Shown here piece after piece: positions 58,259 to 63,113 of a stretch of DNA of 64,000 nt. Within the stretch, counting starts at the first letter, position 1; each line of letters starts with the position of its first letter. This DNA comes from a virus. The notes below the pieces were generated by a model that was given only the letters and a program-made list of their open reading frames with translations, was not told where the DNA came from and made no database searches. The stretch lies in the IMG/VR virus record IMGVR_UViG_3300042691_014897, positions 1-64,000 of that record, one strand, 5' to 3'. The translations under genes were made by a program, and so were the position numbers.

Positions 58259-58266
58259 TATTTATG
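58259..58266 (-). promoter_or_regulatory. Late promoter CATAAATA, leaderless 79-aa gene
   Basis: The minus strand reads CATAAATA, then TTAAT, then ATG. It overlaps the gp20 stop codon. There is no Shine-Dalgarno. Confidence 0.6.
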
Positions 58267-59983
58267 CGGGAGGTACCGTTCCGGCAGGTGTCGCAGGTGC
58301 TACTGGTTCAGAGCCAGCATCTAAAGGTTCAATACCTTCATCACCTCCAAGGTCACCTGCCATACCTAGATCACCTTCAATACCTGCGGCACTAAGACCA
58401 GCTGAGCGTAATTCGCCAGCAGAGTCAGTATAAGTTGGTTGTCCTTTGCCGTTTTCTTCTGCCCACATACGTTCGTTTTCTGCTATCTCGTCGTCGGTTA
58501 AATTTAGATAACGCTTCATAGCGAATCGTTTTGACATAAAAGGCAATGCCTGTACAGTATTGAACGTATTAATGCGTTCAGTATCCATAGCAGCCTGACG
58601 ACTACTTGCAAAATTTAACGGCGGATTAAACTTTAATTCAAAGAGACTAGCGTCAATATTAACACCTCTTTGATACATAAACAGTTTAAATTCTTCGTCA
58701 AATACACTAGTTACTAATGCTTGTAGACGTTCGCAATACTTGTTAAAACGCAGTTCTTGAATATATGCTGTGCCAACACGACCGTCATTATATGATGCTT
58801 GGCTATCGTCTGCACCTGTTGGCAGATAGCTTGATGGAATTCGTAGGCCGCGGAATAGCTTGTTTGTGAAGTATTTTAAATCGTCGATTTCACCGAGATT
58901 CGTCCCTCCAGGCAGGGTCTCAACTTTGGATCCACGTCCCTCTGCGGTTTGTGGGAAAAAATAATCTTCGTTAATTGACAACGGATTATATGCGCTATCA
59001 ATAACGTTTTGACCGCCGCCTGTTTGGCTAGGGATACGACGCTGATGGATTTCATTTTTAACCCTTTCAACAAAGGCCATAGCCATGTGGCTTGGCATGT
59101 TACCTACATCAATGTGAAACACCCTGCGCTCTGGAGCACGTTGAATACGATAGATTAAGATAGCGTCTTCAAGCAGTTCTTTCTGCTTGTAGACTTTAAA
59201 AATATTTTCTAATAAACTGTTGCCAAACGGAAAATTGTTATCTAATCCTTCTGAAAGACTAAGATGAACTACATGTTCTGCGTTGATTGCATATTCAGTT
59301 TCGCTAGTACCAAACCGTCCAGTATTACTAGTAGGATATGCGTTGCTCTTAGGCATAGTTCCGCCAATCGCTCCATATCCTCCGCTGCCAGCCATACCGC
59401 CTGTTCCTTGTCTAGGATTAATGTTAGGTGTAATCTGTGTTACAACAAGGCTCTCAAAATTAGGTGCAAGATCTTTAACTACATATTGCTCGGGTTTTTT
59501 GCCTTCACTTTCGTTAACAATAATTTTTACAATTTTACTAGGATCGATATAGCTCCACTTTTGTGTTTCTGGATCTCGAATAAAAAAAGCATCACCGTAC
59601 TTGAATGTGTTACGCATCATACGGAAAATACGAACATCAAACTGTTGTATTCTGCACCATTGCTGTAGATATTCACCTAAAATTCTTATTTCTGAATTAG
59701 TTGCTTTATGTCGCCATTGAACTGTAAAAGGAGTTTTACCGTCCTTTAACTTTTGTGTAGAAAACTCTGCTAGAATATCTAGAGCCGCGTTAACTTCGGG
59801 ATCTGAATCCATCACTTCGTACTGTTGATAACGTTCAACACGGTTTGGACTACCGGTATAAACGTCTGGCAAGTAGCTGGAATAATTTGTAGCAGCCGGT
59901 CCTGGTCGCGATGAAGAATTTCCAGAAATTGGACTTAAATTTGATACAGTCGGTACTGGTGTGAAATATTTTTTCCAGCTCAT
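58262..59983 (-). CDS. 20: Portal vertex protein gp20
   Basis: This dodecameric portal is the entry for packaged DNA, the start point of shell assembly and the dock for the neck. Its 573 residues compare with 524 in T4. Diagnostic segments: NRVERYQQYEVMDSDPEVNAALDILAEFSTQ, FRMMRNTFKYGDAFFIRDPETQKW, DAILIYRIQRAPERRVFHIDVGNMP, VETLPGGTNLGEIDDLKYF and LFRGLRIPSSYLP. A Gly/Ser-rich insert (GTGGMAGSGGYGAIGG) and a Pro/Ala/Gly tail are poorly conserved. It lies eight bases downstream of the tape-measure candidate, with AAGGAT before the ATG. Confidence 0.97.
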   Translation of the reverse strand: MSWKKYFTPVPTVSNLSPISGNSSSRPGPAATNYSSYLPDVYTGSPNRVERYQQYEVMDSDPEVNAALDILAEFSTQKLKDGKTPFTVQWRHKATNSEIRILGEYLQQWCRIQQFDVRIFRMMRNTFKYGDAFFIRDPETQKWSYIDPSKIVKIIVNESEGKKPEQYVVKDLAPNFESLVVTQITPNINPRQGTGGMAGSGGYGAIGGTMPKSNAYPTSNTGRFGTSETEYAINAEHVVHLSLSEGLDNNFPFGNSLLENIFKVYKQKELLEDAILIYRIQRAPERRVFHIDVGNMPSHMAMAFVERVKNEIHQRRIPSQTGGGQNVIDSAYNPLSINEDYFFPQTAEGRGSKVETLPGGTNLGEIDDLKYFTNKLFRGLRIPSSYLPTGADDSQASYNDGRVGTAYIQELRFNKYCERLQALVTSVFDEEFKLFMYQRGVNIDASLFELKFNPPLNFASSRQAAMDTERINTFNTVQALPFMSKRFAMKRYLNLTDDEIAENERMWAEENGKGQPTYTDSAGELRSAGLSAAGIEGDLGMAGDLGGDEGIEPLDAGSEPVAPATPAGTVPPA

Positions 59984-59991
59984 ATTAATCC

Positions 59992-61998
59992 TTAGGCTAT
60001 TAAATTGCCTTTACTTTTAATTGCTTTTGCGGTACTTGACCCGGTCGATTCTACTGTTTCGATTAGTTGGGCGGTTAGTTTATTTAAGTTATTAATGCCT
60101 TTCACCATCTCGATCTGAATTTCCGTTCCGCTGTCTATTGCTGTGCTTCCTGCAACTGAGTTAGCAATATTAGACGCGGTAGATCCGCCACCGGATACTA
60201 AAGTAGGAACGGTATTCATGATTTCAGTCATTAAACCTTTGATACTGTCGGCGCTGGATGTAGATGCACTGGCTAACGATGATTGCATTTCTTTCATTAA
60301 TGGTGCAAGTACGCTAGGATCATCTCTGGCAATATCTGTTATAAACTGTGATCGTTTACTCCAAGGAACGCTAGCTTCTTCTTCTCTTTCAGCTAGAAAT
60401 GATAATCTGTTTAAAGGGCCGCTAAACCAATCTCCAAAAACATCCTTTGATCCAAATGCTTCTCGGCCTACGTTTCCGAGTTTACTTCTTCTCTGTGCTT
60501 CTGCTTCGTTTGATCCGCTAATCTCAGGATTTGTACTAGTTTCAATCGCTTCTCTGTTGCCTTCACCGACTGCGGTTATTTTGTCATATACAGCACGACC
60601 AAGTTGGGCACTACTGGCTTGGGTAATAGGTGTTAATTTGTCGCTTACTGCTTGAAAAGCATCACGCAATCCGAATGCTTTTTTATTTGCCGCATCAAAT
60701 GCTGTACCTACCCCTGCACTGATATCTTTAAACAGATCTTCTGTCCTATTAATAACAGTGGCCGCCATTTGTTCAGGTGAAACTTCGCCTGTACGAGCGG
60801 CTCTGCGTTGATCTTCTATTTCTTTTATAATTCTAGCTTTAGCCTGTTCTATAGTTTCGCCTGCTCGAAGACCATCTCTCTGTATCTGTTGAAGTGCTGT
60901 AGCATAGTCTTTCATGCCAACAATTACTCGTCCTTGTGCTTGTCCCCATTCTCCCCCTGCAGTTACCTGAGCGGCACGAATTCTTAATTCTTCTTTATTG
61001 TTTGCTAGACGTAGGGTTTCAGCATCCATTGCCTCCATAACTGCTTTTCGGCGGCGATTAGCTTCATCATCGTTGCCTTCGATTTCAGAAAGTTCTCTAA
61101 TTAATCTCGTAAACTCTGGACCTAGAGCCGCAGCCTTCATAGAATCTTCAGCGGTCCTTAATCCTCCAGTTTTAAAAGCAGTAAACACGTCTTGGGCATC
61201 TTTACCAAATGCGCTGAGAGAGGCAGTTCCTTTTAGGTATGCTTCTCTTTGGTCTTCATCCATAGCCATGAGAGCAATTTCTACTTCATTCTTACGCAGT
61301 TGTGCTTGCACAGCTTTTTCTTGCTCTTGTCGACTTATTCCTGTTAGTCGAGCAACGTTATCCATTTCTCTAGCTAGAGAAAGAGCACTCTCAACTACTG
61401 CTATGTTAGATTCTTTTGTAGTAAGATCTGAGCCTCTGCGTATAGAAGTTGATATTCCTAACGCTTTGTTAAGTTCGTCAGCACCTACTCCTGTGGCTTT
61501 TAATTCTCTTCCTAGGTTTGATTCTTGTACATCTTTAGCAAATGCTAAAAATCTCAATCCGCTACCTGCGGCATCGCCAGCAAGACCTTTTAATGCTACG
61601 CTGTTTTCTTTGACCATTGCCTGAAACTCAGGCAAGCTCATTCTAGCACCAGTGATCGAATTAACCATTAGGCCCATATCTAGGCCAAAGTTCATACCGC
61701 TCTTAGAAACGTCTTTTAAAACATTATTAAATTCAATACCTGTGCGACCTACTTTTCCTAGTACATCGCCCATTACTCCGCCAACAACAGGGAAGACGTT
61801 AAACGCCTTAGTAGTAAGCTCTAGAGCATCACTTAGTCCAAAAGTACCTGAAGTTAGTTTAGTCAGTGATCCTACAGTTCCGCTGATAACTGTACCCACA
61901 GAAGGCAGTTGAAATCCTCCCATATTTTTAACAGAAACAGTAAGAGCGTCAATTGATGTTTTTAACGAACTAATATCGGAAGCAGAAGGGTCAGCCAT
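59992..61998 (-). CDS. Large structural protein, tape-measure candidate, 668 aa
   Basis: This is a long, mainly helical protein with hydrophobic N-terminal segments (VGTVISGTVGSLTKLTSGTFG, AFNVFPVVGGVMGDVLGKVG) and long amphipathic helices (SNIAVVESALSLAREMDNVARLTG, RRRKAVMEAMDAETLRLANNKEELRIRAAQV). It has no catalytic signature. Length and helicity fit a tail tape measure (T4 gp29 has 590 residues). It sits directly beside gp26 and its partner, and tail chaperone genes normally flank the tape measure. The assignment rests on composition and position; gp29 homology is not evident by eye. It is divergent from gp26, with opposing late boxes between. Confidence 0.6.
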   Translation of the reverse strand: MADPSASDISSLKTSIDALTVSVKNMGGFQLPSVGTVISGTVGSLTKLTSGTFGLSDALELTTKAFNVFPVVGGVMGDVLGKVGRTGIEFNNVLKDVSKSGMNFGLDMGLMVNSITGARMSLPEFQAMVKENSVALKGLAGDAAGSGLRFLAFAKDVQESNLGRELKATGVGADELNKALGISTSIRRGSDLTTKESNIAVVESALSLAREMDNVARLTGISRQEQEKAVQAQLRKNEVEIALMAMDEDQREAYLKGTASLSAFGKDAQDVFTAFKTGGLRTAEDSMKAAALGPEFTRLIRELSEIEGNDDEANRRRKAVMEAMDAETLRLANNKEELRIRAAQVTAGGEWGQAQGRVIVGMKDYATALQQIQRDGLRAGETIEQAKARIIKEIEDQRRAARTGEVSPEQMAATVINRTEDLFKDISAGVGTAFDAANKKAFGLRDAFQAVSDKLTPITQASSAQLGRAVYDKITAVGEGNREAIETSTNPEISGSNEAEAQRRSKLGNVGREAFGSKDVFGDWFSGPLNRLSFLAEREEEASVPWSKRSQFITDIARDDPSVLAPLMKEMQSSLASASTSSADSIKGLMTEIMNTVPTLVSGGGSTASNIANSVAGSTAIDSGTEIQIEMVKGINNLNKLTAQLIETVESTGSSTAKAIKSKGNLIA

Positions 61999-62064: not shown

Positions 62065-62892
62065 ATGACCACAAATCCATTACAGCAGTTTTTTAGACAA
62101 CCAAAGATCTATGTTGGCCTGCCTAGCAAAGGTATTTTTAATAAGCCTAATACAGTATCTGGGGATATAAATCGCATGCCAATCTACGGCATGACCGGTA
62201 TGGATGAGATCATACTTAAAACTCCAGATGCGCTATTATCCGGAGAAAGTACCGTAAGGATTTTCCAAAGTTGCTGTCCAACACTAACAGATCCGTGGGA
62301 TGTGTCAATTATAGATACAGATCTATTGTTAACTGCTATCCGTATTGCTACTTTTGGTAATGAACTGTCTGTTAAAAATGTTTGTAAAAACTGTGGAACA
62401 GAAAACGATTATACTATTAATCTTAATACATTTATCGATCACTTCGGTAGCTGTGCATACGAAGATACTCTTGTGTTAAAAGATATGTTAATCAAAACAA
62501 GACCGTTAACTTACAAACAAAGCTCAGAGTTCGGATTAGAAAATTTCCAAATACAACAACAGGCTAATCAAATTAGCCTAATTGACATCGATGCTGAAAA
62601 GAAAAAATTAATGGAAGAAGTATTTGTAGCACTGGGCAAACTGCGTATTAACGCTTTTACTGCACAAATAGATAGCATAGAAGCAGGCGGAGCAACTGTT
62701 ATCGAAAAAACTTATATCAAAGAATTTTTAGAAAATGCTGATGTCGAAATTATTGATCAACTACAGAAACATCTAGAAGATAACAGAAATAAATGGACTA
62801 TTCCTAGACAACATGTTACCTGTGCTAATTGCAGTACTGAGGATAATCTGCTTATCGAGCTTGACCAAGCAAATTTTTTCGCCAAAGCCTAA
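62065..62892 (+). CDS. 26: Baseplate hub protein gp26
   Basis: T4 gp26 acts in assembly of the baseplate hub. The start is very family-like: NPLQQFFRQPKIYVGLPSKGIFN, then MPIYGMTGMDEIILKTPDALLSGESTVRIFQSCCP, and TAIRIATFGNE. Two CxxC pairs (CKNC about residue 110, CANC about 255) suggest a zinc site. At 275 residues it is longer than T4 gp26 (208). The last codons contain AAATTTTTTC, a double slippery site that could send some ribosomes into the next ORF. The stop lies five bases before that ORF. Confidence 0.88.
   Translation: MTTNPLQQFFRQPKIYVGLPSKGIFNKPNTVSGDINRMPIYGMTGMDEIILKTPDALLSGESTVRIFQSCCPTLTDPWDVSIIDTDLLLTAIRIATFGNELSVKNVCKNCGTENDYTINLNTFIDHFGSCAYEDTLVLKDMLIKTRPLTYKQSSEFGLENFQIQQQANQISLIDIDAEKKKLMEEVFVALGKLRINAFTAQIDSIEAGGATVIEKTYIKEFLENADVEIIDQLQKHLEDNRNKWTIPRQHVTCANCSTEDNLLIELDQANFFAKA
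62871..62880 (+). promoter_or_regulatory. Putative -1 ribosomal frameshift site
   Basis: In the gp26 frame the sequence reads as two overlapping X-XXY-YYZ heptamers, A AAT TTT (62871-62877) and T TTT TTC (62874-62880), four codons before the stop. The -1 frame then reads seven sense codons (FRQSLIR) without a stop straight into the ATG of the 71-aa ORF, giving a predicted fusion of about 349 residues. No hairpin was checked by computation. Confidence 0.6.
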
Positions 62893-62897
62893 TTAGG

Positions 62898-63113
62898 ATG
62901 TCTGCCTCGGACATTGAAACATATCTAATTAGGCTAGATAAAGAAATACAAGAATTTAAAAACGAATTATCAAGAATAAGTTGGTACATGAGAGGCGGTG
63001 TAACAGTACAAGAGTTACTGCATGTCTATTCAGCCGATGATCGAGACAGTTTCTATTCTGTGATCAAAGAAAACATCGACATGACCAAAGAAACTAAAAT
63101 GCCTCTTATCTAG
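62898..63113 (+). CDS. gp51-position protein, tail assembly chaperone-like, 71 aa
   Basis: This is a small helical protein with KEIQEFKNELSRISWYMRGGVTVQELLHVYSADDRDSFYSVIKENIDMTKETKMPLI. The WYMRGG and closing IKEN...TK.T...PL pattern recurs in small tail-assembly proteins of T4-like phages, and T4 has gene 51 (hub assembly) after gene 26. The ORF is in the -1 frame to gp26. Its own start has AGG touching the ATG, a poor ribosome site, so coupling or frameshifting from gp26 is likely. It overlaps the convergent 296-aa gene by eight bases. Confidence 0.78.
   Translation: MSASDIETYLIRLDKEIQEFKNELSRISWYMRGGVTVQELLHVYSADDRDSFYSVIKENIDMTKETKMPLI

Follow-up and report, generated by a model that had tools for sequence, protein, structure and literature searches.

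Comparative evidence for a programmed -1 frameshift in the tail assembly chaperone gene of jumbo and uncultured T4-like phages

A gp26-like gene and the small open reading frame behind it, found in a 64,000-nucleotide stretch of viral DNA (the window; positions 1 to 64,000 of IMG/VR record IMGVR_UViG_3300042691_014897), are most probably expressed together by programmed -1 frameshifting on U UUU UUC, a reading to which we assign a probability of about 95%. Following the logic of lambda G and GT, the two products would be a short protein, TAC-N, and a longer fusion, TAC-NC. A slippery site, its register, an open -1 frame, selection on the extension, a conserved stem and homology to T4 gp26/gp51 are all observed. 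A first-pass annotation had predicted from the window that the gp26-like protein is fused in this way to the downstream frame, and the comparison of related genomes supports that prediction through conservation, selection and missing start codons.

Results

Layout of the junction

The features are collected in Table 1. From position 62860 the junction reads CTT GAC CAA GCA AAT TTT TTC GCC AAA GCC TAA in the gp26-like frame. As the first-pass annotation had described, the -1 frame stays open past the heptamer and leads into the next open reading frame; its first codon is CGC (62880-62882), and its stop (63111-63113) would give a fusion of 349 aa. An invariant FF, residues 271-272 of TAC-N, lies at the slip site. 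A peptide QHVTCANCSTEDNLLIELDQANFFAK would be diagnostic of the 0-frame product TAC-N, and one containing ...QANFFR of the fusion across the slip.

Table 1. Coordinates of the features around the gp26-like gene, in positions of the window
Feature	Position	Strand	Basis
TAC-N, gp26-like putative tail assembly chaperone, 275 aa	62065..62892	+	PF12322, phrog_150, invariant alignment columns
Slippery heptamer T TTT TTC, gp26 register	62874..62880	+	conservation, frozen synonymous codons
TAC-C extension, -1 frame, 77 codons	62880..63113	+	open in all relatives, pN/pS, alignment
ORF2, ATG at 62898, stop 63111-63113	62898..63113	+	-1 frame relative to the gp26-like frame
Stem, 5' arm	62886..62896	+	MFE, z, covariation
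Stem, 3' arm	62925..62935	+	MFE, z, covariation
Small inner hairpin holding the ORF2 ATG	62897..62915	+	predicted in the window sequence
Tape-measure candidate, divergent neighbour of TAC-N	59992..61998	-	position and strand, weak similarity
Portal protein (gp20), syntenic marker	58262..59983	-	identity to the SNUABM_47 portal

Conservation of the slippery site

The motif TTTTTTC is not rare in the AT-rich window (21 occurrences against 18 expected), so the evidence from this single genome is weak and it is conservation that decides. A search with the gp26-like protein as query gave 62 IMG/VR loci, 61 of them usable, one (L062) ending before the junction; to these we added six isolates, the jumbo phages Atu_ph07, Phosso, SNUABM_47, MIJ3, 121Q and XacN1, which are about 25-29% identical to the window in gp26. 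T TTT TTC in the gp26 register, followed by an open -1 frame, was present in every IMG/VR locus that reaches the junction (61/61). Five of the six jumbo isolates carry the same heptamer in register, XacN1 having T TTT TTT, and the -1 frame is open in all six. When the sequences were clustered at 80% identity into 36 lineages, T TTT TTC was present in 35. It was also found in 80 of 80 loci kept when the downstream domain alone served as query, a search that places no selection on the upstream gene but whose profile begins with FFR. In these sets of homologues, neither loss of the slippery site nor another register was found, either of which would have counted against the prediction.

The heptamer is conserved at the level of bases as well as of residues. 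Across 41 distinct sequences, NNT TTT TTC was never replaced by synonymous codons (41/41 at each of the three positions); the codon of a nearby invariant Cys is free, with TGT in 21 and TGC in 20, and nearby Asp codons also vary freely. Elsewhere in the same loci, FF dipeptides are encoded by T TTT TTC in just 5 of 67 cases. The first-pass annotation had pointed to two overlapping heptamers, and only one of them keeps its standing: A AAT TTT (62871-62877) occurs in 12 of the 36 lineages, is therefore not required, and was rejected as the slip site.

The -1 extension

The extension is under purifying selection: its pN/pS is 0.40 when read in the -1 frame, whereas the identical bases taken in the 0 frame give 0.95. 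Its length is 77 codons in 30 of 36 lineages, and the position of the 0-frame stop shifts among relatives, with distances of 10, 16, 19, 40 or 49 nt from the heptamer. FFR (in the window's clade) and W.MRG are invariant in the alignment, and the window extension is clearly homologous in sequence to those of the jumbo isolates (hhalign 99.3%). An AlphaFold model predicts a helical domain (pLDDT 79); with the 79-aa extension as query, Foldseek gave no significant match among viral models.

One could suppose instead that the T-run is incidental and that ORF2 is a gene of its own, started at its ATG by termination-reinitiation coupled to the gp26 stop. In the window this ATG lies 5 nt past the TAA, an ATG, GTG or TTG stands at the same place in some relatives, and some deposited genomes annotate ORF2 as a separate frame. 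However, 19 of 36 lineages lack an ATG, GTG or TTG anywhere in the extension's first 20 codons, and 27 lack an ATG there, so that a separately started ORF2 cannot be the general way to make the domain; fusion is left as the sole evident route to TAC-C. Moreover, FFR follows the slip invariantly in the window's clade and yet falls outside the ORF2 translation, the heptamer is frozen at its synonymous sites, and there is no ribosome site at usable spacing; the site had already been called poor, and indeed its AGG abuts the ATG with zero spacing. We therefore reject ORF2 as an independently initiated main route, on account of the lineages without an early start codon, and regard a separate gene as very improbable. 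The ATG at 62898, to judge from its lack of conservation, is probably not the main start.

A mixed arrangement is compatible with frameshifting: the slip would yield TAC-NC, and reinitiation would add free TAC-C wherever a start codon exists, as the ATG so close to the stop in the window and the early start codons of 17 of 36 lineages might allow. Against this, the start lacks both conservation and a usable ribosome site and, in the window, lies in a predicted hairpin; we consider such a double route unlikely.

Two deposited genomes bear on how the extension is annotated. In Atu_ph07 the deposited ORF AUZ95433.1 (L001:4930-5052) has as its start an internal ATG within the conserved WYMRGGV motif, and most of the TAC-C domain is therefore missing from the annotation. 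In MIJ3 (L004:4859-5065) the -1 extension, which lacks an early start codon, is wholly unannotated.

The downstream RNA stem

The frameshift signal also includes a stem-loop (62886-62935) that the first-pass annotation did not mention. Its arms, AGCCTAATTAG (62886-62896) and CTAATTAGGCT (62925-62935), would form 10-11 bp starting 5 nt past the heptamer in the window, the consensus pairs starting from 6 nt, and the 5' arm holds the 0-frame TAA (62890-62892). The window stem has an MFE of -20.9 kcal/mol and a z of -4.8.

Across 34 aligned sequences, 10 pairs were predicted de novo, with compensatory changes, and a 13-pair version of the stem reached a covariation score of 0.312 against 0.218 in shuffled alignments (0/500), with slid versions scoring at most 0.127. 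In 51 further sequences, outside those that defined the stem, 97.1% of cells pair, and 17 double-change cells were found against 3.6 expected (0/500). Shuffle tests of this kind may be inflated by related sequences. Sliding the stem is a control that retains the relatedness, and it gave far lower values for cells paired and for covariation score, although at a slide of -1 the count of double-change cells was similar to that in the true register.

The stem is partly lost in two loci (L031 and L040), both of which keep the heptamer, and other or weaker folds occur in L047-L049, L060, L061 and L063-L070; with such lineages in the set, the stem is a clade feature. We take this downstream structure of the window's clade to be a putative stimulator of frameshifting. 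Unrelated hairpins stand at the same distance from the heptamer in XacN1 and MIJ3, the one in XacN1 (L006:4780-4859) being a strong fold of about -21.6 kcal/mol that begins 6 nt past its T TTT TTT.

The stem also bears on whether the frame is changed by the ribosome at all, since RNA polymerase might slip on the T-run, which is 6 T long in the window and 7-8 in XacN1 and HTVC008M. Efficient transcriptional slippage usually needs about 9 or more A or T, however, and a run of 6 is short; the run always begins on the third base of a codon, giving X XXY YYZ, and a covarying stem follows it at the spacing of a frameshift signal. We therefore hold polymerase slippage to be extremely improbable and retain slippage by the ribosome.

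The gp26-like protein and its neighbourhood

TAC-N matches PF12322, T4_baseplate (E=4e-11), and phrog_150 (E=1.7e-13). Its AlphaFold model (m9157c4358ea7) is confident (pLDDT 89), and among named proteins its best structure matches are baseplate and baseplate hub assembly proteins of the T4-like kind; against the PDB, Foldseek gave no match and a sequence search with the gp26 profile returned nothing relevant. Matches of the model also reach larger proteins of other jumbo phages (phiEaH2, RSF1 and RP12 among them), which suggests that the gp26 fold extends beyond the T4-like phages. Two CxxC pairs, C107/C110 (62383-62394) and C253/C256 (62821-62832), are invariant in an alignment of 20 relatives, and CxxC is also present in T4 gp26, so that a zinc-binding site is likely at these residues. 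One gp26-family match was found in the 97 kb record, which may be a fragment.

Next to TAC-N, on the opposite strand and divergently transcribed rather than directly downstream, lies a tape-measure candidate whose identity is positional, with weak similarity (E=0.001): it has the position and strand of the annotated TMP of SNUABM_47, and 31 of 67 related loci have similar sequence in that place. The portal protein is 49% identical to that of SNUABM_47 and occupies the same position in 53 related loci. The order of tape-measure candidate and portal is common to pEa_SNUABM_47, 121Q, MIJ3 and Phosso. This synteny, together with homology to T4 gp26/gp51, supports the assignment of the gene pair as a tail assembly chaperone (TAC).

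Discussion

Slippage, its efficiency and the fusion TAC-NC are deduced here from the sequences, and they fit the following course of events. Most ribosomes would continue to the UAA (62890) and release TAC-N of 275 aa, while a minority would be held up by the stem-loop 5-6 nt downstream. In these, both tRNA-Phe would slip back by one base and re-pair on UUU UUU, and translation would resume at CGC (Arg) and proceed in the -1 frame to 63113, yielding TAC-NC of 349 aa. By analogy with lambda G and GT, both products would be expected to coat the tape measure protein and guide it while the tail is assembled, and so to serve as its chaperones.

In lambda, a -1 frameshift close to the end of the short frame gives the long form, and the tape measure gene is adjacent; the predicted arrangement in the window is similar, with a tape-measure candidate as neighbour. 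The two systems differ in the heptamer, that of lambda being G GGA AAG, and in that the tape-measure candidate of the window is on the opposite strand. T4 genes 26 and 51 are separate paralogous genes on opposite strands, in contrast to the single frameshift layout of the window; gp26 and gp51 both match PF12322/phrog_150, as TAC-N does, and gp51 carries its N-domain and an extra C-domain, phrog_634, in one frame. T4 gp26 ends in ...EFFELL and so shares the FF, but the corresponding site in gene 26, GAG TTC TTT GAG, holds no slippery heptamer, unlike T TTT TTC in the window. The earlier description of the pair as a T4-type G/GT equivalent is thus sound in that the window has a frameshifting counterpart of the T4 pair, and imprecise in that T4 itself makes its forms from separate genes and not in this way.

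A similar qualification applies to the label of gp51 position that ORF2 had been given, which fits the C-terminal domain of gp51 and not the whole protein. The window extension occupies the same place as the phrog_634 domain, with the same FF junction. By profile search, however, its similarity to phrog_634 or the T4 gp51 C-domain was not significant: window ORF2 did not match the phrog_634 profile, and hhalign against the T4 gp51 C-domain gave a weak probability of 14-21% with the jumbo members and 0.5% for the window clade alone. P-SSM2, S-PM2, KVP40, HTVC008M and phiM12 each have T TTT TTC or T TTT TTT at the end of their gp26 homologue, with phrog_634 behind it in the -1 frame. Vi01 (L081) also has a -1 frame open into a phrog_634-like domain; its overlap, ATT TTC ATT TAA, holds no canonical heptamer, and this phage may therefore use another slip site or mechanism. 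Frameshifting is said, in the abstract of the work that identified T4-like TACs, to be conserved in several T4-like groups.

Vladimirov, Gautam and Davidson (2022, Virology 566:9-15) identified the TACs of T4-like phages, a work represented here by two papers that cite it (PMC10274946, PMC12846349). The PRFect paper (PMC10274946) cites it for T4-like phages in which, instead of frameshifting, the short protein and the long fusion each have their own gene, and PMC12846349 cites it for poly-T slippery sequences in TAC-N genes of T4-like phages. The published TAC-N/TAC-NC pairs, as described through these citing papers, resemble the window in having a gp26-family N-protein, a poly-T site before the stop and a small C-domain in the -1 frame; the window differs in a C-domain that is only weakly comparable, in a lineage-specific covarying stem and in belonging to a jumbo/uncultured group. 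In literature that represents Vladimirov et al. (2022) through its citing papers, we found nothing joining jumbo phages with this signal. Frameshifting TACs have been on record for T4-like phages since 2022. The window is therefore a strong new example, from an uncultured group, of a system whose kind is already known, with the stem and the spread through jumbo and uncultured phages appearing to be new detail.

We lean slightly towards a fuller account, in which the stem, with the TAC-N stop in its 5' arm, drives frameshifting across the uncultured phages of the clade, and in which the frameshifting state is ancestral and was replaced in T4's own group by gene duplication (26/51), the slippery site being lost and the FF kept. 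Many small ORFs now called hypothetical (phrog_18291, and in Atu_ph07 and MIJ3 the calls that are truncated or absent) would on the present evidence encode a tail assembly chaperone's C-terminal half. The comparisons, including RNA covariation, add strong evidence that jumbo and uncultured T4-like phages produce the gp26/gp51 chaperone pair by frameshifting, and the two-gene arrangement of T4 therefore looks like a derived substitute.
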